64,000 bases of DNA. It comes from Thermoproteota archaeon (lineage in GTDB: Archaea; Korarchaeota; JAOZGF01; JAOZFZ01). The notes under the pieces are model-generated. The model had not been told where the DNA came from and searched no databases. It saw only the letters and a program-made list of their open reading frames with translations. The DNA is taken from assembly GCA_027492035.1 (NCBI GenBank), contig JAOZFT010000032.1, positions 10,233 through 74,232 on the forward strand, written 5' to 3'. A program made the position numbers and the translations under genes. Shown here one piece after another: positions 19,748 to 39,765 of this stretch. How positions within the stretch are numbered: the stretch's first letter is position 1; every line of letters starts with the position of its first letter.

Positions 19748-20932
19748 TTAATCCCCTCTTTTTAAAACGAAAGCTACAACGTTACTTCCGAAACTGAAAA
19801 AGTTACAGGAGAAACCTATTTCAGCGTTTTCAACCTGCCTTTCCCCAGCTTCGTTTCTAAGCTGCCAGACTAACTCCACTATTTGTGCAGCCCCTGTAGC
19901 TCCTACAGGATGGCCTCGTGCTTTCAATCCACCCGAGGGGTTAATTGGTATTTTTCCACCTATTTCTGTTAACCCTTCTTCTAAGGCCTTATGTCCTTCT
20001 CCCTTTTTAAAGAAACCAGCTTCTTCGCTTTCAGCTATTTCAAGTATGGTGAATGCGTCATGCAGCTCAGCTACATCTACATCTTTAGGTTCAACCTTAG
20101 CTATTTCAAATGCTTTCTTAGCTGCTATTCTTAAAGATTTAATTTCTGTCGGATCCTCTCTTTCGTGGACAGCTTGAACCTCTGTAGCCTGGCCAAAACC
20201 TATTATTTCAACAGGTGTGTCAATGTATTTCTTTGCTTCCTCTAATGGGCATAGAATAACTGAGGCTGCGCCGTCACTTACGGGGCAGCAATCATAAAGT
20301 CTTAGGGGGTCAGCTATAACTGGGTTTTTTATTCCGGATTTTTCAGGGTATAGTATGTCGTCAACAGTTACTGCTTTATGTATGTGTGCATAAGGGTTTT
20401 TTAAAGCATTTTTATGGTTTTTTGCTGCAACCATTGCTAAATGTTTCCTTTCTACACCGTATTTATGCATGTAAAGCCTGGTAAACATTCCAGCTAAAGA
20501 AGGTAATGTTACTCCTTGTGCATATTCAGCTTCAGGATGAGTCATGGTAGCTATGAAATCAGTGATTTCATTTCCAGTTGTAACCCTCATTTTTTCACCT
20601 GCAGCCACTAATACTTTGTCAAAATAACCTGAAGCCACTGCCAAAAAACCATTTTTTATGGCTGAAGAACCTGAAGCAGTTCCGTTCTGTACGGTGTCAA
20701 CAGCTGCTGGTAAAAGGTTTAAGTTGGCTGTTAAAGCTGTAGCTAAACCTGTTTGGTGATTAAGCAATAAACTACCCATGTTTCCCACATAAACAGCATC
20801 TATTTGTTTATTGTCTAAGTTTGAGTCATCTAAAGCTTTTAAAGAAGCTTCAGTTAAAAGATCCATCAAGGTTGCATTTTCGTGTTTACCGAATTTAGTC
20901 ATGCCGCACCCAATTATTGCCACTTTCCTCAT
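19748..20932 (-). CDS. Thiolase-superfamily protein lacking the usual active-site cysteine
   Basis: Clear thiolase fold: start MRKVAIIGCGMTKFGKHE, HDAFTILE (usual NExF position) and GGLKARGHPVGATGAAQIVE with the conserved histidine, in about 395 residues. The nucleophile segment, normally EAACASG, reads QNGTASG, so a threonine (residue 85) replaces the acyl-accepting cysteine. The C-terminal catalytic cysteine region is FSCNFFSFGS rather than a CxGG-type motif. A normal acetoacetyl-CoA thiolase reaction is therefore unlikely; it may be an aldolase-like or acyl-CoA-binding relative. The ATG at 20932, after GGGAGGT, is preferred to a longer frame from 20983. Confidence 0.85.
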   Translation of the reverse strand: MRKVAIIGCGMTKFGKHENATLMDLLTEASLKALDDSNLDNKQIDAVYVGNMGSLLLNHQTGLATALTANLNLLPAAVDTVQNGTASGSSAIKNGFLAVASGYFDKVLVAAGEKMRVTTGNEITDFIATMTHPEAEYAQGVTLPSLAGMFTRLYMHKYGVERKHLAMVAAKNHKNALKNPYAHIHKAVTVDDILYPEKSGIKNPVIADPLRLYDCCPVSDGAASVILCPLEEAKKYIDTPVEIIGFGQATEVQAVHEREDPTEIKSLRIAAKKAFEIAKVEPKDVDVAELHDAFTILEIAESEEAGFFKKGEGHKALEEGLTEIGGKIPINPSGGLKARGHPVGATGAAQIVELVWQLRNEAGERQVENAEIGFSCNFFSFGSNVVAFVLKRGD

Positions 20933-21136
20933 TTTCTTTCTTACCTCCCAGGGAAATGGATAAGAATGGTCACTTACCTTCACTTTTTAAATTTTCCCTT
21001 TAATTCCTCCCTGTTTTGTTGGAATAGAAAACTTTTTTAAGTGAAGGGAAGAGAATTTCTTTGTTCACTTATTTAACGCTCTGTTGTCACATTTTTTTCA
21101 ATGAAGGTTTTTGGAGGCTTATAAAGGGTATAAATA

Positions 21137-22822
21137 ATGAATAGGAGCAATTTAGAAAAAATAAGTAAGGGCAAAAAGGAATGGGAGGAAAAACAATTGA
21201 AGAACCTTTTGAAGAAAGCACCTGAAAGAAAGAGTGTTTTCAAAAATTCCTCAGGAATAGAAGTGGGAAGGGTCTACACCCCCCTTGAGATCCAAGGTTT
21301 TGATTACTTAACCAAGTTAGGCTTCCCCGGCAGTTACCCTTACACTAGAGGCCCCTATGCAACAATGTATAGAGGCAGGTTATGGACCATGAGGCAATAC
21401 GCCGGCTTCGGAACAGCTGAAGAAACAAATAAACACTTCAAATACTTGCTGAGTCAGGGTCAGACAGGTTTAAGTGTAGCTTTCGACTTGCCTACACAGA
21501 TAGGCTACGACTCTGATCACCCCTTAGCTAGAGGGGAAGTAGGGAGGGTGGGTGTAGCTGTTGATTCATTAAAAGACATGGAAATACTATTTCAGGGGAT
21601 TCCTCTGGACAAAGTAAGCACCTCAATGACAATTAATGCACCCGCCAATGTGTTATTGGCGATGTACTTAACCCTAGGGGAAATGCAAGGTATAAATAGA
21701 TCTCTTTTAAGAGGAACTGTTCAGAACGACATATTGAAGGAATACATTGCTAGGGGAACCTACATCTTTCCTCCAACACCCTCACTGAAAATAGCTGTAG
21801 ATGTTTTTGAATTTTGTTCGAAAGAAATGCCTAAATGGAACTTCATAAGCGTAAGTGGCTACCATATGAGAGAAGCTGGGGCTAATGCTGTTCAAGAATT
21901 AGCTTTCACTTTAGCTGATGGGTTAGCTTACATAAATGCTGCTTTAGAAAGAGGTTTAAAAATTGATGACTTTGCTCCCAGGATCTCCTTCTTTTTCGCT
22001 TGCCACAATAACTTCTTCGAAGAAATAGCTAAGTTCAGGGCTGCAAGAAGGTTGTGGGCTGAAATTTTAAAGGAAAAGTATTCTCCAAAGAAAGAAAGAT
22101 CCTTACTTATGAGGTTCCACACTCAAACCTCAGGTTGTACATTAACTGCTCAGCAGCCTATGAACAATATAATACGTGTAGCTTATCAAGCTTTGGCTGC
22201 TGTGCTTGGGGGTACTCAAAGTTTACACACTAACAGCATGGATGAAGCCCTATGTTTACCCAGTAAACAATCAGTTAAGATTGCTTTAAGAACTCAACAA
22301 ATCCTAGCTTATGAAACAGGCGTCTCTGACACTATAGACCCCTTAGGTGGATCCTATTACCTTGAATGGTTAACTGATGAATTAGAAGAAAAAGCTAGGA
22401 AGTATATTGATGAAATAGAGGAAATGGGGGGAATGGCGAAAGCTATTGAGAAAGGATTTATCCAGAAGGAAATACTTGAAACAGCTTATCACTACCAGAA
22501 AGAAATAGAGAAAGGAGAAACTGTAGTTGTGGGAGTGAATAAATTCAAGGAAGAAAGGGAAGAAATAAAAATTGAAATTTTCAACGTTTCAAAACTTGAA
22601 GAAACAGCTAAAATGCAAATTAAAAAACTTCAAATAGTTAAAAGAGAAAGGAATAAGTCTAAGGTTGAAGAGGCATTGTGTAAACTAGGTAAAGCGGCTG
22701 AAAAGAATGAAAACCTTGTACCTCCAATAATTGAGGCAGTTAAAGCTTATGCCACTTTAGGAGAAATATGTGGTGTGTTAAGAAACATTTATGGGGAGTA
22801 TAGAGCCCCAAATATTCTTTAA
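21137..22822 (+). CDS. Methylmalonyl-CoA mutase large (catalytic) subunit
   Basis: Second mutase barrel, 561 residues. It keeps the methylmalonyl-CoA carboxylate-binding pair: Tyr74 in RGPYATMY and Arg206 in ARGTYIFPP. The rest of the barrel ([46 protein letters not shown]) is canonical, so interconversion of methylmalonyl-CoA and succinyl-CoA is expected, with the B12 subunit from 15237. The epimerase follows 16 bases later. Three tracts are nearly identical at DNA level to the paralogue at 16680 (see findings). Confidence 0.94.
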
Positions 22823-22838
22823 AAAAGGGTGAAAGATA

Positions 22839-23237
22839 ATGTTTAAGAAGATAGACCATATTGGAATAGCTGTCAAAGACCTTGAAGAAACCATGAAAAA
22901 ATTTAAGGATGTTTACGGTTTAGAACTGCATAAAGTAAGGGAAGTGAAGGATCAAAAAGTGAAAATTGCAGTTTTTAAAATAGGTGAAACCAAAATAGAA
23001 CTTCTTGAACCAACCGAAGAAGAAAGTGCAGTTGGAAGATTTATTCGAAAAAGAGGGGAAGGTTTCCATCACATAGCTTTTCAAGTTGAAGATTTAGGAT
23101 CTACATTGGAAAAAATTGAGGGGGCAGGCATAAAAACAGTGACTGATAAGCCGACTTTAGGCTACGAAAACCACAAAATCATTTTCTTGCATCCAAAAAC
23201 AACTAACGGCGTATTAATAGAACTTGTGGAAAAGTAA
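22839..23237 (+). CDS. mce: Methylmalonyl-CoA epimerase
   Basis: A 132-residue vicinal-oxygen-chelate protein. Metal-ligand positions of the epimerase are recognisable: KIDHIGIAVKDLEE (His7), IELLEPT, GFHHIAFQVED and VLIELVEK. It interconverts the two epimers of methylmalonyl-CoA ahead of the mutase. The gene lies directly after the canonical mutase with an AAAGGGTGA ribosome site, supporting a functional pair in propionyl-CoA metabolism. Confidence 0.93.
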   Translation: MFKKIDHIGIAVKDLEETMKKFKDVYGLELHKVREVKDQKVKIAVFKIGETKIELLEPTEEESAVGRFIRKRGEGFHHIAFQVEDLGSTLEKIEGAGIKTVTDKPTLGYENHKIIFLHPKTTNGVLIELVEK

Positions 23238-23377: not shown

Positions 23378-24652
23378 TTGGCTTCTTCAAGCATTAAGGA
23401 AGAGATAGAAAAGGCAAATCAGGAATCTGTTACAAGAATGATGGAGTCAGATCCACTGTGGGTCGATATAGGATTTGCTAAGAAAGTAATTCCGGGAATG
23501 AAGGATTATAAACTGATACATGCAGGTCCCCCAATTGAATGGGAAAGAATGAGCGGACCCATGAGAGGGGCAATAATAGGTGCTATACTCTACGAAAAGT
23601 GGGCTGAAACACCTAAAGAAGCTGAGGAATTAGCTAAGTCAGGTAAAGTTAGTTTCGAACCTAACCATCACTATAACGCAGTAGGTCCCATGAGCGGGGT
23701 TATTTCCCCAACTATGCCAGCAATTGTTCTGAAAGATAAAAAGTATGGGAACCAAACCTATTCTCTCCTTAATGAAGGAATAGGGAAAGTGCTCCGTTAC
23801 GGCGGCTACGACAAGGAAGTAATAGATAGGTTAAACTGGATAAGAGACGTCTTAGGCCCAGTTTTAGAAGCTACAATAAAGGAAGTAAAGAAGGAGAAGG
23901 AAGGTGTAGCTTTAAAACCAATTATGTCGCAGGCTCTCCACATGGGTGACGAATGCCATAACAGACATGTAGCTGCTACTTCTCTCTTCCTGAGGGAAAT
24001 AATTCCTTACATGATGCAGACAAGGTTAGACAAGAAAGACCTAATTGATGCATACAACTTCATGAACAAAAATAACTTCACTTTCCTAGGGTTCGCTATG
24101 GCTGCAGCTAAGGCAATGACTTTAGCAGCTCACAATATTAAGTACAGTACAATAGTGACTGTCATGAGTAGGAACGGTACAGACATAGGTATTTGGGTTA
24201 GTGGTTTAGGTAATGAATGGTTCACTGCACCAGCTCCTGTACCTAAGGGTGTTTGGTTCCCAGGGTTCAGTGAGAAAGATGCTAACCCTGATCTAGGAGA
24301 CAGCGCCATAATGGAAACAGCTGGTATAGGAGGATTTGCTATGGCGGCAGCACCCGCGATTGTAGCCTGGGTTGGAGGATCTGTTTCCTTCGCTGTTGAA
24401 AACACTAAAAAGATGCAAGAAATCTGTTACACCAAACATAAATACTTCACCATACCCTATCTTGAATTTGAAGGAACCCCTACAGGCGTAGATATAAGAA
24501 AGGTTGTGAAGACAGGGATAACTCCAACTATAAACACAGGCATTGCTCACAAGGAAGCAGGAATAGGTCAAGTGGGGGCAGGAATTGTGAAATTCCCAAT
24601 GAAGATGTTTAAAGATGCGTTAAAAGCCTTTGCAGAAAAATATGGGTTATAA
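23378..24652 (+). CDS. DUF1116 protein, oxamate carbamoyltransferase subunit AllG-like (YlbE family)
   Basis: A 424-residue cytoplasmic protein with the DUF1116 landmarks: DPLWVDIGFAKKVIPGM, LIHAGPPIEWERMSGPMRGA, HHYNAVGPMSGVISPTMPA and LNEGIGKVLRYGGYD. In E. coli the YlbE (AllG) protein works with FdrA (AllF) and YlbF (AllH) as oxamate carbamoyltransferase in anaerobic allantoin breakdown. All three partners occur in this window, on both strands. The TTG start is set by a full GGTGATC ribosome site. It is followed by the DUF2877 gene 50 bases later. Confidence 0.88.
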   Translation: MASSSIKEEIEKANQESVTRMMESDPLWVDIGFAKKVIPGMKDYKLIHAGPPIEWERMSGPMRGAIIGAILYEKWAETPKEAEELAKSGKVSFEPNHHYNAVGPMSGVISPTMPAIVLKDKKYGNQTYSLLNEGIGKVLRYGGYDKEVIDRLNWIRDVLGPVLEATIKEVKKEKEGVALKPIMSQALHMGDECHNRHVAATSLFLREIIPYMMQTRLDKKDLIDAYNFMNKNNFTFLGFAMAAAKAMTLAAHNIKYSTIVTVMSRNGTDIGIWVSGLGNEWFTAPAPVPKGVWFPGFSEKDANPDLGDSAIMETAGIGGFAMAAAPAIVAWVGGSVSFAVENTKKMQEICYTKHKYFTIPYLEFEGTPTGVDIRKVVKTGITPTINTGIAHKEAGIGQVGAGIVKFPMKMFKDALKAFAEKYGL

Positions 24653-24706
24653 AACCCATCCCTTATTCTTTTTTGCCTACAAAAATATGCGAAAGACCGA
24701 TTTTTG

Positions 24707-25666
24707 ATGCATTTAGAAAGTATTGGCGAAATAGCTTTAAATGAAATAACCAAGTCAGAAGGGGAAAGTAAATTAGGGACAGTGTTGAACGTTTTCAAAT
24801 CCACAGCCTACATAAAAACAATAAGTAATGAATTAATTATATTAACCACCCTCCCCTTAAAATCCCCTATAACCATGAACTTAAACTATAGAGGTAACCT
24901 TAAATCTGTTTTAAAACCTTTAGCAAAAATTAAAGTAAGGGACGGTAAACTTCAAACAAATGGTTTCACAGCATCTTTAGTTGAAGCCAAAAAATATGTT
25001 GTTCAAAAACAATGCCTTAACGCTGATGTATTGTTTTCTATTCTGGAAAAAGATTTCCGAAACATCCTTTCTCTCTTAAACCTTGAACTTTATAATGCAT
25101 CAATTACTTGGTTAAAAACTTATCAAGTAGTTACCGAAAAGTTTATGGAGTGTCTTAACGAAACTAAAAAATTGAAAAATAATTTACAGAACTCAATTTT
25201 AAATTTTTTAACTAAAATTATAGGGTTAGGGCCTGGTTTCACCCCTTCAGGGGATGACTTTGCGGCAGGTTTTCTTTTCATATTCAACACCTTTTCTCCC
25301 TTACTCAAACTTAAAAAAATAAAAATAAGCAATAGTATCCTCTTCTCCCACACAAATTGGGTTAGTGGAAAAATAGTAGATTATATACAGCGAGGTATTG
25401 CTGATGAAGTGCTTTACAAGGTTCTTTGCTGCTTAAAGAACCTTCAAAGGAATTCTTTAACAGATTCCTTCCTAGACCTGATTTCAAGGGGTCATACCAC
25501 CGGAGTAGATCTTGCGATGGGGTTTCTTGCAGCTATTTCCTTTCTACAAGATACTGCCTATAACTCAAGTTTAACTTCTAAACTGATCCTTTTCTTGCTT
25601 GAAAATACAAAGCAAGTTTTGTTTGTTGGGGGAGATGGGAACCTAAGGAAATTACCTAAGAACTAA
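24707..25666 (+). CDS. DUF2877 protein, oxamate carbamoyltransferase subunit AllH-like (YlbF family)
   Basis: A 319-residue protein with the hallmark DUF2877 segment IGLGPGFTPSGDDFAAGFLF near residue 180 and a C-terminal SRGHTTGVDLAMGFLAAI. The N-terminal half is a beta-rich domain with little conservation. In E. coli the family member YlbF (AllH) belongs to the oxamate carbamoyltransferase with FdrA and YlbE. It directly follows the DUF1116 gene. I use the ATG at 24707; a TTG precedes it directly and no strong ribosome site is visible. Confidence 0.85.
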   Translation: MHLESIGEIALNEITKSEGESKLGTVLNVFKSTAYIKTISNELIILTTLPLKSPITMNLNYRGNLKSVLKPLAKIKVRDGKLQTNGFTASLVEAKKYVVQKQCLNADVLFSILEKDFRNILSLLNLELYNASITWLKTYQVVTEKFMECLNETKKLKNNLQNSILNFLTKIIGLGPGFTPSGDDFAAGFLFIFNTFSPLLKLKKIKISNSILFSHTNWVSGKIVDYIQRGIADEVLYKVLCCLKNLQRNSLTDSFLDLISRGHTTGVDLAMGFLAAISFLQDTAYNSSLTSKLILFLLENTKQVLFVGGDGNLRKLPKN

Positions 25667-25842
25667 AACATTTATCTTTTTTCAGGGAGGAAAAGTAAAC
25701 ATTTAAAAATGAAGCCTTTCCTGTGAAAGGGTATTACCCATACTCCCCTACAATTCCTTTAATGAATGTCTCAGGGGGAAAACATGTTAAAGAACTGTTT
25801 TTCTTATTCTGAAAAGGGTGAAGTAATGCAGGTGAAATTTAT

Positions 25843-28227
25843 TTGAGGCAGAAATATATAGGTAAAGCTTTACCTCAGCTTGATTCATTTCATAAAGTTA
25901 CCGGTATAGCCAAATACACACACGACATCTCCCTTCCCGGTATGCTCCACGTTAAACTCGTAACTAGTACGGAGCCACATGCAGAAATAATCAACATTGA
26001 TGCAAGTGAAGCTTTAAAAATTCCTGGAGTGGTGGCAGTTCTTACAGGGAAAGATTTTCCTTACAGGCTTGGGATTTATGTAGGAGATAGAGATGTTTTG
26101 GCAATTGACAAAGTTAACTGGGTAGGTCATCCTGTAGCCGCTGTAGTTGCCGAAACAATGGAGGCAGCTGAGAAAGCCATTGACTTGGTTGAAGTAGATT
26201 ATAAGCCTTTGAAACCTGTCTTCGACCCCTTTGAAGCTTTAAAGGAAGAAGCGCCGATTATCCACCCAAAACTTGGTGAATATAGACGTGCACCTGCTTT
26301 TACGCCGGTTCCAGGAACAAATATAGCTAATAAATTCACTTTAAGGAAGGGAGATGTGGAGAAAGGGTTTAAAGAAGCAGATGTGGTGGTTGAAAACAGA
26401 TTTTACATGCCCTTCGTAAGTCACTGTTACATGGAGACACAATCCGTGGTTGCACATTACCACAAAGACGGGACAATTGAAATATGGACGAGTGCACAGT
26501 CTCCATTCGCTGTAAGGAACCTAATGGGTTTGTCACTAGGTATCCCTATCGGTAAAATAATTATTTATCAGCCCTTTGTGGGAGGAGGTTTCGGAGGTAA
26601 AGCAGGGTTACATTGGGAACCATTGGCAGCCTTAATTTCTAAAAAGGTAGGTTACAAACCTGTTAAGCTTAAACTTTCAAGGAAGGAACAGTTTACTTCA
26701 GCACCTGTAAGGGAAGGGTTCCATGCAGAAGTTAAAGTAGGGGCTAAAAGAAACGGTAAATTAACAGCTTTAAAAGCAAAATTCATTCTTGACAGTGGAG
26801 CATTCGCAGATTACACAGTAAATGTTTCTAGAGCTGCAGGTTACTCTGTGGGGGAAGTATATGACATTCCTAATGTGTACTGTGACTCCTTAGCTGTTTA
26901 CACAAACAAAGTACCTACTACAGCTATGAGAGGTTTTGGTCACCCGGAAAGTGCGTGGGCTGTTGAAAGATCCATTGAAATGTTAGCTAACGAATTAAAA
27001 ATGGATCCCCTAAAACTAAGGTTAATGAATGTTGTTAAAGCAGGCATATCAACAACCGTAACAGGTGAAAGACTTAGGGAAGATGCAGGTAATCCAGTCC
27101 AGTGTTTGGAGGCTGTAGCTAAAGCAATTAACTGGGGTAAAACCGAAGAAAAACCCAAGGAACCTTGGAAATTTATAGGTAAAGGGTTAGCTGTTTTCTC
27201 CAAGGGTCCAGCTCAACCTCCTAATGCTGCTTCTGCAGCTATTATAAAAATAAATGAGGATGTAACTGTCGATTTAATGGTTGGGACTGGAAACTTCGGA
27301 CAAGGCACCCTAACAAGTCTGGCGCAAATTGTCGCTGATGAATTGGGGGTACCTGTAGAAAAAGTAAGAATAAGAACTATGCGTAGTACAGACACTGTAG
27401 CCTATACTTGGCAAACAGTAGGTAGTAGAGGCCTTTTCACTGATGGAAACGCTGTGCTTGAAGCACTAAAGGATGCTAAAAAACAAATAAAGGAAGTAGC
27501 TTCACAGGTCCTTAGAGTTAAGCCTGCAGATTTGGAAATAAAAGACGGAAAAGTTATGGTAAAGGGCAGACCCTGGGAAAATGTCCCTTTGAGTGACATA
27601 GTCATGGGATATACTTACCCCAATGGCAACTCTATAGGAGGCCCAATAATAGGTAGAGGTAAATACATCTCCCCAATAAATACTTATTTAGATCCTGAAA
27701 CAGGTCAAGGAATACCCACTATCTTCTACACCTTTGGTGCTGCTGCATGCAAAGTTGAAGTTGACGTCCTTACAGGTAAAGTGAAAGTGCTGGAAGCTGC
27801 CCAGGCTTTCGATCTAGGAAAAGCCATAAACCCATTACTTGTCCGTCAACAAGTTGAAGGGGGCTTTATAATGGGTCTAAGTGTAGCGTTATTTGAAGAG
27901 ATACAATTTGATGAAAGAGGGTGGGTTCTTAACCCTAACTTCTCAACTTACTGGGTTGCCAGGGCTGCAGATATTCCTTCAAAAATAGACACTATACCAG
28001 TGGAGAATCCTCAGAAAGATGCACCTTACGGCGCAAGAGGGATAGGGGAAGTAGTAATGTTAGGTGTCCCCCCTACAATAGCCAACGCTGTACAGAATGC
28101 AATAGGGGTAAACATCAATAATTTGCCTTTAACGCCTGAAAACGTTTGGAAAGCTATAAAGAAGCAGAGGCCTGAATTGGTAGAAGAAATAAAGAAGAAA
28201 TTGGTTTCATGGAAATGGAAAGTTTAG
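25843..28227 (+). CDS. Molybdenum hydroxylase large subunit (xanthine dehydrogenase/CoxL family)
   Basis: Molybdopterin-cytosine-dinucleotide-type catalytic subunit, 794 residues. The N-terminal aldehyde-oxidase domain (KVTGIAKYTHDISLPGML) is followed by the Mo-binding segments QPFVGGGFGGKAG, TAMRGFGHPESAWA, GNFGQGT and the catalytic glutamate in ARGIGEVVMLGVPP. The active-site loop is not the AYRCSFR of form I CO dehydrogenase, so CO oxidation is unlikely. Neighbouring carbamoyltransferase genes suggest a purine or other N-heterocycle as substrate (inference). The TTG start follows a GGTGA site. The FAD and [2Fe-2S] subunits come next. Confidence 0.9.
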   Translation: MRQKYIGKALPQLDSFHKVTGIAKYTHDISLPGMLHVKLVTSTEPHAEIINIDASEALKIPGVVAVLTGKDFPYRLGIYVGDRDVLAIDKVNWVGHPVAAVVAETMEAAEKAIDLVEVDYKPLKPVFDPFEALKEEAPIIHPKLGEYRRAPAFTPVPGTNIANKFTLRKGDVEKGFKEADVVVENRFYMPFVSHCYMETQSVVAHYHKDGTIEIWTSAQSPFAVRNLMGLSLGIPIGKIIIYQPFVGGGFGGKAGLHWEPLAALISKKVGYKPVKLKLSRKEQFTSAPVREGFHAEVKVGAKRNGKLTALKAKFILDSGAFADYTVNVSRAAGYSVGEVYDIPNVYCDSLAVYTNKVPTTAMRGFGHPESAWAVERSIEMLANELKMDPLKLRLMNVVKAGISTTVTGERLREDAGNPVQCLEAVAKAINWGKTEEKPKEPWKFIGKGLAVFSKGPAQPPNAASAAIIKINEDVTVDLMVGTGNFGQGTLTSLAQIVADELGVPVEKVRIRTMRSTDTVAYTWQTVGSRGLFTDGNAVLEALKDAKKQIKEVASQVLRVKPADLEIKDGKVMVKGRPWENVPLSDIVMGYTYPNGNSIGGPIIGRGKYISPINTYLDPETGQGIPTIFYTFGAAACKVEVDVLTGKVKVLEAAQAFDLGKAINPLLVRQQVEGGFIMGLSVALFEEIQFDERGWVLNPNFSTYWVARAADIPSKIDTIPVENPQKDAPYGARGIGEVVMLGVPPTIANAVQNAIGVNINNLPLTPENVWKAIKKQRPELVEEIKKKLVSWKWKV

Positions 28228-28239
28228 AGGTGAAGAAAA

Positions 28240-29121
28240 ATGTCTTTTGGTGCACCCTATATTTCAATACCTGAATTCCAGTATCTTAAACCTAAAACTT
28301 TGAAAGAAGCGCTTGAAACACTTTCAAAATATGAAGATGAAGCTAAAGTGTTAGCTGGGGGTGTAGGCCTTTTAAATCTCATGAAAGAAAGACTAGTGGA
28401 GCCTGAATATGTAGTTGATATTAAAGGGATTCCTGAACTTAGGAAGGTAACATATGAAGAGGGGAAAGGGTTGACTATAGGGGCAACAGTGACTTTAAGT
28501 GAACTGGAAAACAATGAAATAGTGGAGAGGAAGTACACAGCCTTACATGAAGCAATAAAGGTTTTAAGTGACCCAGTTTTAAGAAATAGGTCAACATTGG
28601 TTGGAAATGTCTGTGAAGCCTTTGCTTGGATGGATAGTCTATCTCCTCTACTTGTTTTCGACGCTGAATTAAAAGCTTTAAGCGTAAACGGTGAAAGAAT
28701 GATAAAAGCCAAAGATTTTATTATCGGCCTAGCTGAAACAGCCTTGGAACCAAATGAACTGGTTGCATCCATTTTTCTGCCAGAACCACCTAAAAACTCG
28801 GCAAGTAAATTTATTAAATTCAGGTCCAGAAGCGAATTCAGTGTGATCAACGTGGCTTCTCTCTTGGCAAACAGGGACAATCCTCCAGAAAGAATCTTGA
28901 GATTAGCTTATGGAGGAGCTACGCCTTCTCCCGTTAGGGTATTTGCAGTAGAAAAAGTTTTTAAGCAACAGAAACCCTTAAATGAATTACTTAAGGAAGC
29001 TTTAGATGTTGTTTTCAAAGAAGTTTCCCCAATGGAAGACATGCATGCTTCTAAGGAATACAGGGAACATTTAATGGAAACTTTAACCATTAAAATTATT
29101 AGGGAACTCTGGGGTGAATGA
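28240..29121 (+). CDS. Molybdenum hydroxylase FAD-binding subunit (CoxM/XdhB type)
   Basis: FAD-binding medium subunit, 293 residues. The FAD pyrophosphate segment VLAGGVGLLNLMKERL near residue 40 matches the LAGGxxLL pattern, and LTIGATVTLSELENN is typical. The second FAD motif, usually GGNIAxASPxAD, is altered to VGNVCEAFAWMDSLSPLL. The C-terminal CO-dehydrogenase flavoprotein domain is present. It passes electrons from the iron-sulfur subunit to an unknown acceptor. It overlaps the small-subunit gene by four bases. Confidence 0.9.
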   Translation: MSFGAPYISIPEFQYLKPKTLKEALETLSKYEDEAKVLAGGVGLLNLMKERLVEPEYVVDIKGIPELRKVTYEEGKGLTIGATVTLSELENNEIVERKYTALHEAIKVLSDPVLRNRSTLVGNVCEAFAWMDSLSPLLVFDAELKALSVNGERMIKAKDFIIGLAETALEPNELVASIFLPEPPKNSASKFIKFRSRSEFSVINVASLLANRDNPPERILRLAYGGATPSPVRVFAVEKVFKQQKPLNELLKEALDVVFKEVSPMEDMHASKEYREHLMETLTIKIIRELWGE

Positions 29122-29594
29122 AAATGCCAAGAAAAATCACCTTCACCGTGAATGGTGTGAAAAAACAGGTGGAGGTTAAGGATAATGAGTTGTTGGCTGA
29201 TGTTTTAAGAGATAAGCTTCAACTTACAGGTGTAAAGCAGGCATGTTGGAGAGGGGAATGTGGACTTTGCACAGTACTCCTTAACGGTAAACCTGTTAAA
29301 TCATGCCTTATCTTAGCTGTTGAAGCAAACGGGGCTGAAATAGTTACCAGTGAAGGATTAATGGAGGGTGACAAACTATCCCATCTACAAAAGTCATTTG
29401 TTGAAAACGGAGCTCTTCAATGTGGTTTCTGCACACCAGCTTTCACATTGGTAACTCATTATTTACTGACTCAAAAACCTGACGCGTCAGAAGAAGAAAT
29501 AAGGGAATATATTAGTGGCTTAATTTGTAGGTGTGGAACCTATAATGAAATAGTGAAAGCTGTGAAACAGGCTTCTCAATACTACAAAAAATAA
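29118..29594 (+). CDS. Molybdenum hydroxylase [2Fe-2S] subunit (CoxS/XdhC type)
   Basis: Small iron-sulfur subunit of 158 residues. The plant-type cluster motif CWRGECGLCTVLLNG and the alpha-helical-domain motif CGFCTPAF with CRCGTYNEI near the C-terminus are both complete, so two [2Fe-2S] clusters are expected. It completes the L-M-S trio read from one strand. The start is the ATG at 29118 or the ATG at 29124, the latter better spaced from GGGGTGA. Confidence 0.93.
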   Translation: MKMPRKITFTVNGVKKQVEVKDNELLADVLRDKLQLTGVKQACWRGECGLCTVLLNGKPVKSCLILAVEANGAEIVTSEGLMEGDKLSHLQKSFVENGALQCGFCTPAFTLVTHYLLTQKPDASEEEIREYISGLICRCGTYNEIVKAVKQASQYYKK

Positions 29595-29626
29595 GGAAAT
29601 GAATTTCTTTTCCTCTTTTTCTTTCT

Positions 29627-29800
29627 TTAAAGGATTTTTGAAAGGATGTCCTTGTATTCTTTTTCTAGTTTAGGGGGCGGCTGCCAAGTGACGTGTACAG
29701 CCTTTATTTCTTGGTCAAGCAAGGCATTATAAAATATTTCTATGCCTATGTTTATTACTTTTAATTCAGATTTAAATAACTCCATCACTTTCTCACTCAT
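29627..29800 (-). CDS. Small FdrA-linked protein with WQPP motif
   Basis: A 57-residue protein starting right after fdrA, with GGTGA eight bases before its ATG (29800); an in-frame GTG lies at 29812. It reads LKVINIGIEIFYNALLDQEI then AVHVTWQPPPKLEKEY. From memory, short proteins annotated as fdrA-domain proteins beside fdrA in some bacteria share the pattern of NxG, then VVHVxWxPP. It may be a small subunit or accessory of the carbamoyltransferase. No cofactor or catalytic residue can be identified; the role is inferred only from the position. Confidence 0.65.
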   Translation of the reverse strand: MSEKVMELFKSELKVINIGIEIFYNALLDQEIKAVHVTWQPPPKLEKEYKDILSKIL

Positions 29801-29814
29801 TCCTTTTTTCACCT

Positions 29815-31428
29815 CTATTGTGGAAACAGGAAAGATTCATATGTTCTTTCTAATGTATCCTCTTTCATTCTCCCCTTCGATGCCACTGCTGAAGCTAATA
29901 TAGCCATTAAAGCATTAGTTGGAAGAACTGTAACACCTAAACTTTCCAGTTTCTTTGTTTGGAGCGAAAGGTTTTGGGGGTCTCTATCCGTCCCGCATAC
30001 ATGGGCTAAAATAGCTAAGTACCTTCCGTTTTTTTCAGCTGTTTCTTTTGCTTTCCTTATAGCTTCTGTATGGGCTTCAGCTGGGTCTGAATGTGAACCG
30101 TAACCTAGAACGAAATCAAGGAGTATAACAGCAACTTCTGGGTCCTTTGCCTCTTCTATCAACCTTAAATTCCTAATCGTCGGGTCAATCATCGGATGAG
30201 CTCTGCCTATGGTGAACTCTTCCTCCCCTAAATCAACTACTGTGTGTTGAAAACTTTTGTAAGGGTTTTTTAATCCAAGCCTAGGTTCTAGGGGTGCATT
30301 GGAGTAAACGTCTCCCAAAGTTTCTTTTAAGATAATAAGTGACTCATACGTTAATGTTCCCCCTGTAAAAAGTCCCCTTATGTATTTCTGTTTTTCTTCA
30401 AATTGAGAATAAAGCTTTTCACTTTTCCTTAACAACTCCTCTGCAGGTATTGAAATCTTCTTTTCTGCCTCTTTGAAAAGTTTTTCGTCAAGGAGTCTTA
30501 CCGACTCTAAAGCTGCTGCATGTAACGTTCTTGTTTGGACAAGTCTTTCCTTAAGTTGATTGGGTACTTCAAAAACTTTCCCGCCCATGAAACAGGTAAC
30601 ATATTTCTTTTTTGTGTTGTATGTTATATAATCAAGTATTTTTTTCTGAACTTCGGGATCTGGTGGTTTAGCCACTAGAGTTACTACTTTTGTTTCGGTA
30701 TCTTTCTCTAAAGCCTTTATTGACTCTAAAGCCATTATTCCCCCCACTTTCTTTTTAACATCTCCTCCACCTATTCCTATTCCCTGTGAAACACCTGAAC
30801 CGGCTACAGTTATTAAAACACTTACCTCCTGTAAACCTGTTCCAGCTGCTGCAACTATGCCTATTGGTCCCTTATTTACTACGTTAGCGAAAGCTATTGC
30901 TTTGTTATTTATTATTGAGGTGCCTGCAGCAGCCCCCATTACAAGGAGACCCCTCTCCTTTGCGTATTCCTTTATTTCAAGTTCATCCTCAATGGGTACA
31001 TGGTCACTGAATAAGTGCACGTGAATTCCTCTATCTAAAAGTTTCAGCGTTATTTCTTTAGCGTATTCCCCTGGGACGGAAACGATTGCTAAATTAGCAT
31101 CAGGTAATGCCTCTAATGCAGTTTCTAAGCTGTAAAAGTATTGTCCAGCTTTTGGAGGCTTAGTTAGCATTTTTTCAATTGTTTCAACAGCCTTATTTAT
31201 TATTTCTTCAGTTGATGCGGAAACAGCTATTACCATGTCGCTTTCTCCAGCTATTTTCCCTTCCTCAACCAATAAACCTAGTTTTTCCAGTATTTCCTTG
31301 TTTGTTTTTGTACCCATAACTACAGCTGCATCCATTACTCCCTCTATTTTTTTAGCTTGTTCTGACAAATGGAGGAGCTGTAAAGAGTCCCTATAAAAAT
31401 TCTTCTTCACCACATTTTTTACAGGCAA
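29815..31428 (-). CDS. fdrA: FdrA/AllF, SucD-like subunit of oxamate carbamoyltransferase
   Basis: A 537-residue protein related to the succinyl-CoA synthetase alpha chain, with two Rossmann-type halves. Visible family segments are DAAVVMGTKTNKEIL near the start, GAAAGTSIINNKAIAFANVV, GSGVSQGIGIGGGDV and the C-terminal HPMIDPTIRNLRL followed by LLDFVLGYGSHSDPA. In E. coli FdrA (AllF) acts with YlbE and YlbF in cleaving or forming oxalurate from oxamate and carbamoyl phosphate. Carbamate kinase lies directly upstream on the same strand. Start is uncertain between TTG 31428 and GTG 31437; both lie at a GGTGAT site. Confidence 0.9.
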   Translation of the reverse strand: MPVKNVVKKNFYRDSLQLLHLSEQAKKIEGVMDAAVVMGTKTNKEILEKLGLLVEEGKIAGESDMVIAVSASTEEIINKAVETIEKMLTKPPKAGQYFYSLETALEALPDANLAIVSVPGEYAKEITLKLLDRGIHVHLFSDHVPIEDELEIKEYAKERGLLVMGAAAGTSIINNKAIAFANVVNKGPIGIVAAAGTGLQEVSVLITVAGSGVSQGIGIGGGDVKKKVGGIMALESIKALEKDTETKVVTLVAKPPDPEVQKKILDYITYNTKKKYVTCFMGGKVFEVPNQLKERLVQTRTLHAAALESVRLLDEKLFKEAEKKISIPAEELLRKSEKLYSQFEEKQKYIRGLFTGGTLTYESLIILKETLGDVYSNAPLEPRLGLKNPYKSFQHTVVDLGEEEFTIGRAHPMIDPTIRNLRLIEEAKDPEVAVILLDFVLGYGSHSDPAEAHTEAIRKAKETAEKNGRYLAILAHVCGTDRDPQNLSLQTKKLESLGVTVLPTNALMAILASAVASKGRMKEDTLERTYESFLFPQ

Positions 31429-31483
31429 ATTTATCACCTAAATTTTTAATTCTATTTCTCCTTCTTTGTTTCCAAGAGTTTAC

Positions 31484-32443
31484 TCATTTATTTTTGTATA
31501 TTAAGGTCCCTGTTTTTCCATCTAAAGCGTCAACCGCTTTATTTAACGAGGTAATTATCGCCTTTTTCCCCCCAAACTCCAGAAACCTTATGCAAGCCTT
31601 TACTTTCGGCCCCATACTTCCAGCCAAGAAATGGCCCTCCTCTAAATATTTTTTGGCTTCTTCAATAGACATTGTGTCAATGTCTTTCTCGTTTGGTTTT
31701 CCATAGTTCAATTTAGCTTTTTCTACATCCGTCAAGATAAGGAAAATGTCGGGTTTCACCACTTCAGCTAGTCTCTCCCCTGCTAAATCTTTATCTATCA
31801 CTGCTTCAACTCCCTTTAATGAGCCATCCTTCTGCGAAACAACAGGTATTCCTCCGCCTCCTGAGGCTATAACTATTACCCCTGCATTAACTAGCCTCTT
31901 TATTGCTTCCCCCTCTATTGGACGTATAGGGTCAGGTGAAGGAACAACTCTCCGGTACACTCGTTCACCAGCAGGTTTCACTTTTCTAATGAAGTAATTT
32001 CTTTCTTTCTTCAATTCTTCAGCCTCTTCTAAAGTGTAAAACGGTCCAACGGGTTTATGTGGATCTTGGAAATCCGGATCGTCCTCTCTAACCAACACTT
32101 GTGTCACAATAGTTGCTACAGGAATGTTTATACCCTCTCTTTGTAAATAGTTTATTAATGTCTGTTGTAACATGTAACCTATTTGTCCTTGTGTCATAGC
32201 ACCTAAGACATCTAAGGGTTGTGCAGGAACTTTACTTACTCCCTCTTCCTGTTGGATAAGTAAGTTACCCACCTGAGGACCGTTTCCATGAGTAATAACT
32301 AAACCGTAGCCTCTTTTCACTATTTCAAGCAAGTGTTTACATGTTTCTCTAACGTTTCTAAACTGTTCTTCAGCTGTTCCTTTTTCATCGGCTTGTTTTA
32401 TTGCGTTTCCTCCCAATGCAATAAGAATAACTTCTTTTTTCAT
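31484..32443 (-). CDS. arcC: Carbamate kinase
   Basis: Amino-acid-kinase-fold enzyme that transfers phosphate from carbamoyl phosphate to ADP. The 319-residue protein carries ALGGNAIKQADEKG at the start, THGNGPQVGNLLIQQE, the proline-rich PVGPFYTLEEA segment, IASGGGGIPVV and LTDVEKAKLNYG, all typical of ArcC. Located just upstream of fdrA, it would make ATP from the carbamoyl phosphate released by the carbamoyltransferase, as AllK does in bacterial allantoin fermentation. Confidence 0.95.
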   Translation of the reverse strand: MKKEVILIALGGNAIKQADEKGTAEEQFRNVRETCKHLLEIVKRGYGLVITHGNGPQVGNLLIQQEEGVSKVPAQPLDVLGAMTQGQIGYMLQQTLINYLQREGINIPVATIVTQVLVREDDPDFQDPHKPVGPFYTLEEAEELKKERNYFIRKVKPAGERVYRRVVPSPDPIRPIEGEAIKRLVNAGVIVIASGGGGIPVVSQKDGSLKGVEAVIDKDLAGERLAEVVKPDIFLILTDVEKAKLNYGKPNEKDIDTMSIEEAKKYLEEGHFLAGSMGPKVKACIRFLEFGGKKAIITSLNKAVDALDGKTGTLIYKNK

Positions 32444-32575: not shown

Positions 32576-33358
32576 TTATTTTCTTTTAAGAACAATCCCC
32601 GCTGGATCTATTTCTTCCCTCAAAACTTTTAATTCCTTTTCAGTTGGAGAAGGAGTTTGAGGTATCTTTTCCGGGATTATCAGTTCAAAGCTTGTATTTT
32701 CAACCACTTCCTTAACAGTTACTCCCGGGTGTAGTGAAAGTAATTTCATCCTTTTAGTTTCTTCATCGAAACCCATAACCCCTAACTGTGTAATTACTCT
32801 GTAAGGACCTGTATCTTCCGGTAAACCAGCTTTTTCCCTTTCACCTGGCCCTGTTAAATAACCTGGCGTAGTTATGAAATCTACCTTCTTCACGAATCTT
32901 TTCTTGTCCTGCCTCATAATAATGATGGTTTTCCATGCAAGGGAGCCTGCGTCATTAGCCCCACCACTACCAGGCAACCTAACCTTTGGTTTATCAATAT
33001 CCCCTATCACTGTTGTGTTTATGTTCCCATACATATCTATTTGAGCGGCACCCAGGAAACCATAGTCAGCGTAACCAGCTTGTAAAAAGGACATTACATA
33101 ATTCATTGAAGTAGCCATCACTGCCTTGTAGAAAGTTCTGGAGTCACCAACTGAAATAGGCAGGGTGGGAAGCTGAGGCCCTACTCCTCCTGCTTCAAAA
33201 ATAATTAAGAGATGGGGTGCATGGGTTTTTTGGGCAAGTGAAGCTGCTATTATAGGTAAACCAGTGCCCACTAAAACTGATCTGTTATCTTTAAGCATTT
33301 TAGAAGCTGCGCAAGCCATTAATTCAATAGTAGAAAATCCTCCTTTATCCCTTTCCAC
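32576..33358 (-). CDS. CoA-transferase subunit B (glutaconate CoA-transferase family I)
   Basis: Beta-type subunit of a two-chain CoA-transferase, about 260 residues. The segment IIFEAGGVGPQLPTLPISVGD includes a glutamate where family I CoA-transferases carry the residue that forms the CoA thioester (ExG), and GFLGAAQIDMYGNINTTVIG with LPGSGGANDAGSL is characteristic. The presence of the glutamate argues against the hydrolase-like IpdAB branch. The GTG at 33358 has GAGGTGA five bases upstream; the frame extends to 33367. It is coupled to the alpha subunit gene. Acyl acceptor unknown. Confidence 0.85.
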   Translation of the reverse strand: MERDKGGFSTIELMACAASKMLKDNRSVLVGTGLPIIAASLAQKTHAPHLLIIFEAGGVGPQLPTLPISVGDSRTFYKAVMATSMNYVMSFLQAGYADYGFLGAAQIDMYGNINTTVIGDIDKPKVRLPGSGGANDAGSLAWKTIIIMRQDKKRFVKKVDFITTPGYLTGPGEREKAGLPEDTGPYRVITQLGVMGFDEETKRMKLLSLHPGVTVKEVVENTSFELIIPEKIPQTPSPTEKELKVLREEIDPAGIVLKRK

Positions 33359-33363
33359 AACTC

Positions 33364-34377
33364 TCACCTCTCCATCCAGGGAGCTTCCAACCTTACTTGA
33401 AGTTTCTCAAGTTTCTTCAAGTAGTTAAGCTTCTTCACTCCCCCTACTAAGTTTAAATATTCCACGAAGTCTTTAACACCGTAAACGTATTTGTCTAAAT
33501 ATTGCTCAACCCCTTCATCTGTTTTAGAAAGTTTGAGCCATTCACCAATATGTTCCTCATCAAAATAGTAAAGATACGGCATGTGACAGGGGTGGCTGCC
33601 GTAAGGCACCTCCACAACAGCATCTACGAGGAAGAAAGGAATAACTGTTCTGTCAGGCCTCTTCCTAATTTCTTCTTCCTCAACTATCTCCTCAGTTGTA
33701 ACAATTAACCTTCTAGCAGCCCTAGCTAATTCGAAATCCATAACCAATATTCCGTCAATTTGGGAGTTTCCGTAAATATCACATCTGTGTACATGCAGTA
33801 TTGCAACATCTGGATAGCATGCAGGAACAAGGCATATTCTTTTCCCAGAGAAGGGGTCTTTCACAACCTTTGATGAACTTCTTTTAAAAGTGTCTGTTCC
33901 AAGCAAAACCCTTACAGGCATAAAAGGTAAACCTAAAGCCGCAGCTTCTAACCTCCATTGGAAAGCAGCGTTGCTCCATTCACTGGCTACTTTCACCTTG
34001 CCTTTTTCAACTGCTCTTCTTGAAGCTGGAGACAACCCCCTTAATTCATGTCCAAAACAGTAAGCAACCTCTACCTTGCTTGCACAACCCGAAGCCATGA
34101 GCAAATCTGTGTCATGAACCCCTGTTTTCCCTCCAACAATCAAATCCTTCTTTTTCTGCCTAATTATTTCATAAACAGCAGCCATTGGAACTCTTACATG
34201 ACCAAAGCCGCCGAAAGCAATGTAGCAGCCATTTTTGACGTATCTTTTCACCGCTTCCCTTAGATCCATCCTTTTATCCTTTAATGTCCTAAACTTGTTC
34301 CTTTCCACCCATTTCCTATGCTCATCAGGATCATGCCAAGCTAGAAGTTCACCCTCACCTTCCTCGACCACTTCCAT
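33364..34377 (-). CDS. CoA-transferase subunit A (glutaconate CoA-transferase family I)
   Basis: Alpha-type subunit of 337 residues. The family opening DKRMDLREAVKRYVKNGCYIAFGGFGHVRVP is preceded by a charged 35-residue extension. Later segments are RVLLGTDTFKRSS, PACYPDVAILHVHRCDIYGN and IVTTEEIVEEEEIR. It sits upstream of subunit B with a four-base-scale junction, so both come from one message. The ATG at 34377 follows GGGG by seven bases. With the mutase and acyl-CoA dehydrogenase genes nearby, a role in activating an organic acid is plausible but the acid is unknown. Confidence 0.85.
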   Translation of the reverse strand: MEVVEEGEGELLAWHDPDEHRKWVERNKFRTLKDKRMDLREAVKRYVKNGCYIAFGGFGHVRVPMAAVYEIIRQKKKDLIVGGKTGVHDTDLLMASGCASKVEVAYCFGHELRGLSPASRRAVEKGKVKVASEWSNAAFQWRLEAAALGLPFMPVRVLLGTDTFKRSSSKVVKDPFSGKRICLVPACYPDVAILHVHRCDIYGNSQIDGILVMDFELARAARRLIVTTEEIVEEEEIRKRPDRTVIPFFLVDAVVEVPYGSHPCHMPYLYYFDEEHIGEWLKLSKTDEGVEQYLDKYVYGVKDFVEYLNLVGGVKKLNYLKKLEKLQVRLEAPWMER

Positions 34378-34660: not shown

Positions 34661-35392
34661 TTAAATTTCTACTTTTTCCGAAATTGTAAAGTTCTTGGCC
34701 TTTTTCAACATGTCTTCAGGGACAGGTCTCTCCCCTATAAAGTAGGGGAACCTCTTTTTTATGAAACTGTCCCAGTCTTCTTTGGTTATATAAAAGACTC
34801 TTGCTCCTCCGAGTTCATGCTGATATTCAGGCCATGGCTTTTGTTTTTTACCCCATTTTAGTGCAAATACACGTATCCCTATGTAAGACTCGAAAGTCGC
34901 CCACCACTCCTTCACTCCAAGGTAGTCGAAAGCGTATTCAACTTTTGCAGCATATAGTGACGGACCTAATCCTACTCCCCTTACAAATGACATTGTATGT
35001 AAACTATATGCTATGTCGTTGCTATATAACCTAGCATTCACTATTCCTGCTAATTTCCCGTCTATTGTCCCCAATAGTAAGTAATGATCTTTTATTCTGT
35101 ACCTGTACCATGCAAGGATCTCTGCGTAAGTTCTCACTGCGACTATGTCGTAGAAATCTTTCTCTACATCGAAATAGGGCCTTATTGCCTTTAAAACTTT
35201 TGGTACATCTTCTCTAGTTGCTTGGTGGACAACCATTTTTGTTCCATCTCTCAAAGTAAGTACTTTCGGTGGGTAAGGAGTGTTTTGCAGTACTGGTGAC
35301 TCCGGAGGCCTTAAGTTTGGTTCTAAATCCTCAACTTTAACAGTATATTCAGTTGCTGAAACAGGACAAGGCGGTTTTAAAGCCACGTTCAT
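34661..35392 (-). CDS. GNAT-like acetyltransferase-fold protein
   Basis: A 243-residue protein whose middle resembles a GNAT domain: DGTKMVVHQATREDVPKVLK (start of fold), LLGTIDGKLAGIVNARLYS (strand 4 region) and FVRGVGLGPSLYAAKVEYAF, where RGVGLG fits the acetyl-CoA pyrophosphate loop. The N-terminal 45 residues are proline-rich and the C-terminal 60 are unusual. No substrate can be proposed. It lies between the CoA-transferase and CoxG-like genes on the same strand, with a 268-base A/T-rich gap on the CoA-transferase side. Confidence 0.6.
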   Translation of the reverse strand: MNVALKPPCPVSATEYTVKVEDLEPNLRPPESPVLQNTPYPPKVLTLRDGTKMVVHQATREDVPKVLKAIRPYFDVEKDFYDIVAVRTYAEILAWYRYRIKDHYLLLGTIDGKLAGIVNARLYSNDIAYSLHTMSFVRGVGLGPSLYAAKVEYAFDYLGVKEWWATFESYIGIRVFALKWGKKQKPWPEYQHELGGARVFYITKEDWDSFIKKRFPYFIGERPVPEDMLKKAKNFTISEKVEI

Positions 35393-35532
35393 CACTCTCC
35401 TTTTTATTTTATTTAAAAAGCTTAAAGCTTACTTTTCTAACCTATTAGGAAATAAGTATGCATAAGTTTGTGGGTTCAAATTTAAATATTTCTAATTTTT
35501 CATTTATCTTTCGATTCTTCCTTTATGTTTTT

Positions 35533-35979
35533 TTAAGTTGCTTCTAATGATTCCTTCACGCATTCAAACATTTTCTTAATCACTTTATCCATGGCTCCTT
35601 GGATCATTCCCTTTGCTAATCCCCCAAGTAAGCCACTTGTTTCTGCAGTTGCTTTCCAAGCAAAGGTTGTAGTGTTTGGTGATTCCTCCTCCAATTTTAT
35701 CTCTACCTCTGAATTAAATGAACTGTTCACTCCTTTACCTTTTAAAGCAAGTCTTGCGAAGTAGTCATCGGGTTTTTCCTCCAAAATTGCCACGTTTATA
35801 TTGAAGGTTCCCTTAATAAACCCAACTCCAGCCTTGACTTTAGCTGTGAAAGATCTTTCTCCTGTCTTTTCGTATTCTTTTAAGCCTGGAACACATTTAA
35901 CTATTTCATCTGTATTGGAAACAAACTCCCAAACTTTGTTCCGAGGCGCATTTATTAAGAACTTACCTTCAAACTCCAT
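35533..35979 (-). CDS. CoxG-like SRPBCC protein
   Basis: A 148-residue protein of the CO dehydrogenase subunit G family (START/SRPBCC fold): MEFEGKFLINAPRNKVWEFV, then VKCVPGLKEYEKTG, and a C-terminal amphipathic GLLGGLAKGMIQGAMDKVIKKM. In CO dehydrogenase systems CoxG helps tether the molybdenum enzyme to the membrane and pass electrons to quinone. Here the molybdenum hydroxylase is about 6 kb away on the opposite strand. The ATG at 35979 follows GGTGA by seven bases; the frame extends to 36009. Confidence 0.82.
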   Translation of the reverse strand: MEFEGKFLINAPRNKVWEFVSNTDEIVKCVPGLKEYEKTGERSFTAKVKAGVGFIKGTFNINVAILEEKPDDYFARLALKGKGVNSSFNSEVEIKLEEESPNTTTFAWKATAETSGLLGGLAKGMIQGAMDKVIKKMFECVKESLEAT

Positions 35980-37554: not shown

Positions 37555-37609
37555 CCCCTTCCCCTTTTTTCTTTATTTTTTAAATATAACGCAATGGAGG
37601 TCTTTTGCT

Positions 37610-38668: not shown

Positions 38669-38669
38669 A

Positions 38670-39632: not shown

Positions 39633-39765
39633 GATCCTCAGAGAGGCGATATTGAAATGGTTCCTTTTTTCTTCGGTACCTTTATTAATTGGAAAAAGGT
39701 TAAGTGTATTTTTGGTTTTTCGAAAATTTCAATATGTAAAAAATTTTTTGATGGGGGAGCCATTA

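Follow-up and report, generated by a model that had tools for sequence, protein, structure and literature searches.

Introduction

What is an archaeon doing with the genes that complete allantoin fermentation in Escherichia coli? The question is raised by a stretch of 64,000 nucleotides from a Thermoproteota archaeon (contig JAOZFT010000032.1, positions 10,233 to 74,232; here, the window), in which AllG, AllH, FdrA and carbamate kinase surround a three-subunit molybdenum hydroxylase at 23378-32443. An earlier note on this DNA had described that island, and every gene that it named there is present where it placed it. The same note took the island for the end of allantoin fermentation, while doubting that the substrate was allantoin-derived. 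We have sided with the doubt: AllG lies outside the E. coli clade, nothing in the genome stands out as an allantoinase, and the genes beside the island's relatives are of pyrimidine type.

We argue that the island could be the core of an oxidative catabolism of pyrimidine bases that conserves energy by way of carbamoyl phosphate, a reading to which we would give an even chance. Our confidence falls somewhat short of that for a fuller claim, namely, that this would be an undescribed and widespread pathway, made up of a new family of uracil/thymine molybdenum hydroxylases, a PF04199 ring opener, a clade of AllFGH acting as ureidomalonate (malonamate) carbamoyltransferase and a carbamate kinase, ending in (methyl)malonyl-coenzyme A (CoA) and spread over several lineages of archaea and some ten phyla of bacteria. 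What the DNA shows directly is gene content, linkage, co-occurrence and motifs; all of the substrates, and the order of the steps, are inferred from them.

The host genome (G000; 1.87 Mb, 93% complete, archaeal) was compared with loci in other genomes, which carry L-numbers below. A scan for AllG across 84,980 species led to 80 named AllG loci, and all locus counts refer to these 80. (In L039, the AllG frame is masked by a longer overlapping open reading frame.)

The island and its probable transcarbamylase

The island holds seven genes.

23378..24652, + strand: AllG (DUF1116, PF06545, E 1.9e-88), subunit of an oxamate-carbamoyltransferase-like enzyme
24704..25666, + strand: AllH (DUF2877, PF11392, E 4.6e-18)
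25843..28227, + strand: molybdenum hydroxylase large subunit with a WQTVGS motif (PF02738/PF20256/PF01315)
28240..29121, + strand: molybdenum hydroxylase flavin adenine dinucleotide (medium) subunit (PF00941, PF03450)
29118..29594, + strand: molybdenum hydroxylase 2Fe-2S (small) subunit (PF01799, PF00111)
29815..31437, - strand: FdrA/AllF subunit (NF004760, 447 bits, cut-off 433)
31484..32443, - strand: catabolic carbamate kinase (TIGR00746, 419 bits, cut-off 358)

All three subunit families of AllFGH are present and linked, with profile cut-offs passed; AllG, AllH and then the three hydroxylase subunits are read from the + strand; the - strand encodes FdrA and carbamate kinase. AllG is 45% identical to E. 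coli AllG and 44% to E. coli YahG and retains the residues that are invariant in the family. FdrA is nearer to YahF (41% identity) than to E. coli FdrA/AllF (35%), and the direct similarity of AllH to its E. coli counterpart is weak (26% over 137 aa). A phospho-histidine mechanism for FdrA, as in succinyl-CoA synthetase, was ruled out, the phosphohistidine of SucD not being conserved.

In a FastTree phylogeny of AllG, some of whose deep forks are weak and whose E. coli branch is long, the window protein falls inside an 18-row archaeal clade (98) and E. coli AllG in a different clade (95). YahG is also outside the window's clade and clusters with Bacillaceae loci. Since the window's AllG belongs to an archaeal clade that excludes both E. 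coli AllG and YahG, the label of an allantoin enzyme is not warranted. The set still likely works as an AllFGH-type transcarbamylase. As an aside, some of the Bacillaceae loci that group with YahG have purine-type permeases, and so the yah genes may serve a second ureide.

Might the island nonetheless belong to a purine route, in which the molybdenum hydroxylase would be a xanthine dehydrogenase and AllFGH would act on allantoin-derived oxalurate, as the oxamic transcarbamylase of E. coli does (PMC11326118)? We consider this quite improbable. XdhA models are the best full-length matches of the large subunit, yet it scores below every curated NCBIfam cut-off (522 bits for XdhA, where 780 are needed), and the motif of its active region is unlike that of E. 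coli XdhA. Nine G000 proteins match PF01979, and those given a family search are deaminase types, an adenine deaminase and PyrC; none of the nine stands out as an allantoinase, two of them (C20, C38) having been compared by BLAST only. PyrC, encoded beside pyrB/pyrI, comes nearest, passing the dihydroorotase cut-off and ending 12 bits short of the allantoinase cut-off. One G000 protein of the Ldh_2 family, which the purine route could claim as its ureidoglycolate dehydrogenase, reaches 202 of the 496 bits that the AllD model requires, and its best model, also below cut-off, is sulfolactate dehydrogenase. The position of AllG outside the E. coli clade counts against this route as well.

The hydroxylase has a signature of its own. 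The motif WQTV[GA]S is common to the large subunits associated with such islands (the window, five archaeal loci, 26/80 loci) and was not found in E. coli XdhA, XdhD or PaoC, in solved carbon monoxide dehydrogenases, in 4-hydroxybenzoyl-CoA reductase or in four other molybdenum hydroxylases of AllG loci (L061, L069, L092, L105).

A conserved module

Is this a chance gathering of genes in one archaeon? It is not. The island is part of a conserved module, traced by sequence through Thermoproteota-type archaea, Hadarchaeota and about ten bacterial phyla, whose parts are AllFGH, the WQTV[GA]S hydroxylase, a PF04199 cyclase, a GNAT-fold protein, a cysteine-less thiolase-like protein with DUF35 and CoA-activating enzymes. 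The window's class comprises only three genomes, all three with AllG, and among 150 relatives searched, AllG occurs in five (G000 included), two of them Hadarchaeota. In the Hadarchaeota as a whole, it occurs in 12 of 28 genomes, in the same neighbourhood (FdrA-AllG-CoA-transferase A-B, thiolase-DUF35-GNAT-AllH and molybdenum hydroxylase). Some Hadarchaeota have an acetyl-CoA-synthetase-type ligase in place of the CoA-transferase of others. An orthologue of the large hydroxylase subunit (at least 51% identity) is found in 9 of the 12 Hadarchaeal genomes with AllG and in 0 of the 16 without it (p 3.2e-5), and the same comparison gives 8 and 0 genomes for the cyclase (at least 73%; p 1.6e-4), p values that, like those below, overstate independence because the loci share kinship.

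The nearest AllG loci (58-73% identity) are mostly from metagenome-assembled genomes (MAGs) of Desulfurococcales, Fervidicoccus, Nitrososphaeria and Pyrodictiaceae, and they again carry the molybdenum hydroxylase, cyclase or GNAT gene. Bacterial module loci come from Bacillota, Caldisericota, Thermotogota, Chloroflexota, Cloacimonadota, Bdellovibrionota, Spirochaetota and others. The molybdenum hydroxylase is present in 32 of the 80 loci and the cyclase in 38 (directly downstream of AllG in 23); the two occur jointly in 26, far above expectation (p 9e-7). Distances between hydroxylases also correlate with those between AllG proteins (Mantel r 0.90), followed by GNAT (0.78), FdrA (0.69) and cyclase (0.67), shared organismal history contributing to all four values. 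The CoA-transferase, GNAT and thiolase/DUF35 genes also accompany the set in other lineages.

Which ring?

If the ring is not that of a purine, which is it? The linked genes in relatives point to a pyrimidine. NCS2 permeases near AllG split into two groups, a UraA/RutG (pyrimidine) type and a XanQ/UacT type. In 11 of 11 molybdenum-hydroxylase loci with a classifiable NCS2 permease, it is of the UraA/RutG type, and the four loci with the XanQ/UacT type all lack the molybdenum hydroxylase and the cyclase (p 0.011 and 0.023), so that clearly purine-type NCS2 permeases stand only where the module's hydroxylase does not, a further point against the purine route. Uridine phosphorylase above the curated cut-off is encoded in L020 (a Hadarchaeal module, with homologues in L026 and L027) and in L078, where the gene order is FdrA-AllG-cytosine deaminase family-cyclase-uridine phosphorylase. 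The cultured haloarchaeon Halostagnicola larsenii has a cytosine deaminase and a cytosine permease, both above cut-off, beside a cyclase and a molybdenum hydroxylase; the stretch examined there has no AllFGH.

It could be said that these uracil-type genes are accidental neighbours in some lineages and that the true substrate is another cyclic ureide or N-heterocycle (hydantoin-like, a modified base or a secondary metabolite). The hydroxylase motif, unlike that of the characterized enzymes compared, and the variety of transporter types (NCS1, NCS2, Nup) would suit such a view, which we regard as unlikely, since enzymes specific to pyrimidines turn up independently in Hadarchaeota, Elusimicrobia and haloarchaea.

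Opening the ring

A pyrimidine pathway would need an enzyme that opens the oxidized ring. The candidate in the host genome is encoded apart from the island.

G000:C14:3354-4142 (L139): PF04199 cyclase (E 1.1e-37), unlinked to the island

Its HxGTHxD...H metal motif is intact (in alignment A3, which contains one stray row, the thiolase L020:11611-12771, that leaves the reading of the motif unaffected). It is up to 85% identical to the module cyclases of Hadarchaeota, another phylum, which is above the identity of other module proteins, and the gene may therefore have been gained by recent transfer. AtzD/TrzD-type barbiturase (PF09663) gave no match in three genomes, and control genomes gave no match either.

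Does the cyclase open a ring at all? Among its nearest solved relatives are kynurenine formamidases, whose substrates are open-chain amides, and its family also includes isatin hydrolases, which do open a ring. One may thus imagine a variant of the pyrimidine pathway, counted within it here, in which the cyclase hydrolyses open-chain malonamate (or oxamate) and leaves ring opening to another amidohydrolase; the formamidases lean that way, as does the coexistence of a haloarchaeal cyclase with a dihydropyrimidinase-like enzyme. We think this variant has a small chance of being right, in view of the isatin hydrolases and of Halanaerobiales operons that have no other ring-opening candidate.

On three megaplasmids of cultured haloarchaea (L163, L164, L165), a module-type cyclase, 54-62% identical to Halanaerobiales-type cyclases, lies on a stretch without AllFGH. 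In two of the three, it is beside a different subfamily of molybdenum hydroxylase, and the neighbours are dihydropyrimidinase-like, cytosine deaminase or xanthine permease genes.

The product and the flanking genes

What would be left once the carbamoyl group is gone? The flanks of the island bear on this.

19394..19744, - strand: DUF35 partner of the thiolase-like protein (from its translation and position, no family search)
19748..20983, - strand: thiolase-like protein with the motif QNGTASG, nucleophilic cysteine missing
21137..23237, + strand: methylmalonyl-CoA mutase large subunit and epimerase, possible downstream enzymes (from translation, no family search)
32576..33367, - strand: CoA-transferase subunit B (PF01144), which adjoins AllG in Hadarchaeota
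33364..34377, - strand: CoA-transferase subunit A (PF01144), which adjoins AllG in Hadarchaeota
34661..35395, - strand: GNAT-fold protein (predicted fold), 244 aa, conserved module member
35533..36009, - strand: CoxG-like protein (PF06240, E 9.2e-27), a usual partner of molybdenum hydroxylases

The limits drawn earlier at 23378-32443 therefore end too soon, leaving out the CoA-transferase pair, the GNAT-fold protein and CoxG to the right and thiolase-like/DUF35 to the left.

One arrangement is a single-strand operon of Halanaerobiales (L070/L073), NCS2-PucR-AllH-MmdA-OadG-BCCP-OadB-GNAT-FdrA-AllG-cyclase-carbamate kinase-molybdenum hydroxylase, where MmdA-OadG-BCCP-OadB encodes the four subunits of a Na+-pumping decarboxylase of the methylmalonyl-CoA type. 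The cultured Fuchsiella alkaliacetigena carries AllFGH, CaiB, the cyclase and a nitrilase, and no molybdenum hydroxylase was seen on its contig. In L079 and L108, a CaiB CoA-transferase and an amidase follow the hydroxylase set, and mutase-like genes adjoin AllG/AllH in the window, in G002 (of the window's class), in L035 and in L039. Because decarboxylase operon, CaiB/amidase and mutase-type neighbours all fit it, we favour a malonyl-type product that needs conversion to a CoA thioester. Na+ decarboxylase and thiolase-like genes, in 8 and 10 loci, show zero overlap, numbers too small for significance.

The thiolase-like protein is not a true thiolase, since the nucleophilic cysteine is absent: NG[PT]ASG replaces CASG in the window protein and in 13 module copies. 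The cysteine is also missing, with a different motif, in L078, and it is kept in L017 and in several other G000 thiolases. The thiolase-DUF35 pair recurs across module loci, and thiolase-fold proteins with DUF35 that catalyse other C-C cleavages are known (PMC12329534). We have not called the pair a retroaldolase, as the enzymes of that report use YDHF/YDCY and the module has HDAF.

The GNAT-fold protein has no Pfam match and no PDB match by sequence, and its treatment as a sequence homologue of a solved protein was dropped for that reason; it is 38-58% identical to its counterparts in other non-Hadarchaeal module loci. Its AlphaFold model is confident (predicted local distance difference test score, pLDDT, 89), with GNATs as top Foldseek matches (E to 2.4e-7) and a structural comparison (VIA) giving Z 14.4 and root-mean-square deviation 3.2 over 163 residues. 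The model predicts the GNAT superfamily fold in general, without a specific relative. In L036 (7825-11703) and L038, from Thermoprotei/Fervidicoccus, indolepyruvate ferredoxin oxidoreductase genes adjoin the module GNAT gene, and in L036, the alpha subunit of an ADP-forming acyl-CoA synthetase is also beside it.

A mutase could equally serve propionyl-CoA from beta-alanine, which is what a reductive pyrimidine route would leave: dihydrouracil would yield 3-ureidopropionate, and AllFGH would take its carbamoyl group. A dihydropyrimidinase-type enzyme does lie near the divergent AllG of L031. We hold this route to be very improbable. It has no job for the molybdenum hydroxylase, the partner tied most strongly to AllG; in G000, no dihydropyrimidinase-like enzyme is clearly recognizable apart from PyrC, beside pyrB/pyrI; and 3-ureidopropionate, unlike oxalurate, is no acylurea.

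A proposed pathway

The oxidative pyrimidine scheme would run as follows. Pyrimidine nucleosides would be imported and cleaved to uracil or thymine, and the molybdenum hydroxylase would oxidize the ring to barbiturate or 5-methylbarbiturate. The ring would be opened, probably by the C14 cyclase, to ureidomalonate or its methyl homologue. FdrA-AllG-AllH would then split ureidomalonate with phosphate, releasing carbamoyl phosphate and malonamate. From oxalurate, the E. coli AllFGH forms oxamate and carbamoyl phosphate (PMC11326118), and ureidomalonate is oxalurate with one CH2 added, so the same chemistry would give these products. Carbamate kinase would turn carbamoyl phosphate into ATP, NH3 and CO2. 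Malonamate would become malonyl-CoA or methylmalonyl-CoA by way of the CoA-transferase and possibly the GNAT-fold protein; malonyl-CoA would be decarboxylated, perhaps by the cysteine-less thiolase/DUF35 pair, and methylmalonyl-CoA would enter the mutase. Thymine would yield the methyl series, giving the mutase a use. The scheme employs nearly every conserved gene and accounts for the CoA and (methyl)malonyl-CoA enzymes; its least certain points are which enzyme opens the ring and what the GNAT and thiolase-like proteins do. The earlier idea of a route that starts from an N-heterocycle and yields carbamoyl phosphate and ATP remains plausible, AllFGH, carbamate kinase, molybdenum hydroxylase and nucleoside import being linked; its allantoin-fermentation framing is not supported.

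Several observations weigh against this scheme. The window itself lacks genes that pass the cut-off for uracil permease, cytosine deaminase or uridine phosphorylase; elsewhere in G000, there are sub-cut-off homologues of this set, and the pyrimidine genes come from relatives. The NCS2 permeases of four loci (Pyrodictiaceae, Caldiserica) are not assignable to the purine or pyrimidine type. In H. larsenii, the hydroxylase is of another subfamily and a xanthine permease is also present; a haloarchaeon pairs the cyclase with a PbuX-type xanthine permease; L084 has a cyclase beside allB/allD-like genes; and the G001 assembly has no cyclase. The set of molybdenum hydroxylases compared contained no uracil dehydrogenase sequence. 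Finally, Fisher and Mantel p values exaggerate the independence of loci that are mutually related.

Relation to known systems

How much of this is new? The Rhodococcus-type oxidative pyrimidine pathway runs through uracil dehydrogenase, barbiturase and ureidomalonase and ends in urea and malonate. The proposed intermediates barbiturate and ureidomalonate would be common to both, and the island would differ by phosphorolysis to carbamoyl phosphate. PMC12507026, the report on the reductive uric acid pathway of E. coli, refers to an oxidative pyrimidine pathway. The reductive uric acid pathway, with its YgeW and YqeA, likewise combines ureide phosphorolysis to carbamoyl phosphate with a molybdenum hydroxylase and a carbamate kinase in one cluster; YgeW, however, is a classical transcarbamylase (PF00185) of another family than AllFGH, with a purine substrate (PMC12507026).

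E. coli AllFGH with AllK (PMC11326118, PMC9843812) shares with the island FdrA, DUF1116, DUF2877 and carbamate kinase, and carbamoyl phosphate as the source of ATP; the island differs in its separate AllG clade and in having molybdenum hydroxylase, cyclase, CoA activation and pyrimidine genes in place of allB/C/D. The E. coli yahDEFGIJ locus (L032:5281-12508, yahD-yahJ), of unknown function, also unites DUF2877, FdrA, DUF1116, carbamate kinase and an amidohydrolase, but it has no molybdenum hydroxylase or cyclase and has its own amidohydrolase, YahJ.

Archaeal allFGHK is not new in itself. Ammonia-oxidizing archaea and comammox bacteria carry it with bmpA-nupABC and biuret hydrolase, as published in 2025 (PMC12625717); there too, archaeal allFGHK is beside a nucleoside-type ABC importer, but the context is biuret hydrolase rather than the window's molybdenum hydroxylase. 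Biuret hydrolase and RutB share one isochorismatase tree (PMC12625717), and among our loci, the 7 of 80 with a RutB-like enzyme have neither molybdenum hydroxylase nor cyclase. A literature search for an anaerobic barbiturate/uracil pathway with carbamate kinase, or for the module, found nothing matching, which is no proof of novelty.

DUF1116/FdrA genes are usually annotated as oxamate carbamoyltransferase (the current Pfam names) and taken as a sign of purine catabolism. Should the module prove to be a pyrimidine pathway, many of these annotations would name the wrong substrate, anoxic sediments and hot systems would have an ATP-yielding route for RNA-derived uracil, and a microbial uracil dehydrogenase gene may be at hand.

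Other genes in the window

The earlier note had also placed a nucleoside importer and a nucleoside hydrolase within 15 kb on each side of the island, and both are there.

12213..13232, + strand: IU-type nucleoside hydrolase (PF01156), pathway membership uncertain
36412..41355, + strand: Bmp binding protein and NupB, NupC, NupA ABC importer, nucleoside type (PF02608, PF02653 x2, PF00005)

NupABC adjoins module genes in Hadarchaeota, Caldiserica and one Desulfurococcales MAG. The closest NCBIfam models of the hydrolase are RihC/UriH, all under cut-off, and its operon (10648-14956) holds a small membrane protein, an EcfT-like protein, the hydrolase and two EcfA-like ATPases, that is, an energy-coupling-factor (ECF)-transporter-like system, which may import modified nucleosides (e.g., queuosine) instead of serving the pyrimidine island. 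Nearer to the island, 15237-23237 gathers a methylmalonyl-CoA mutase small subunit, MeaB, two mutase large-subunit genes and an epimerase within 8 kb, and the presence of two large subunits could point to two acyl-CoA substrates.

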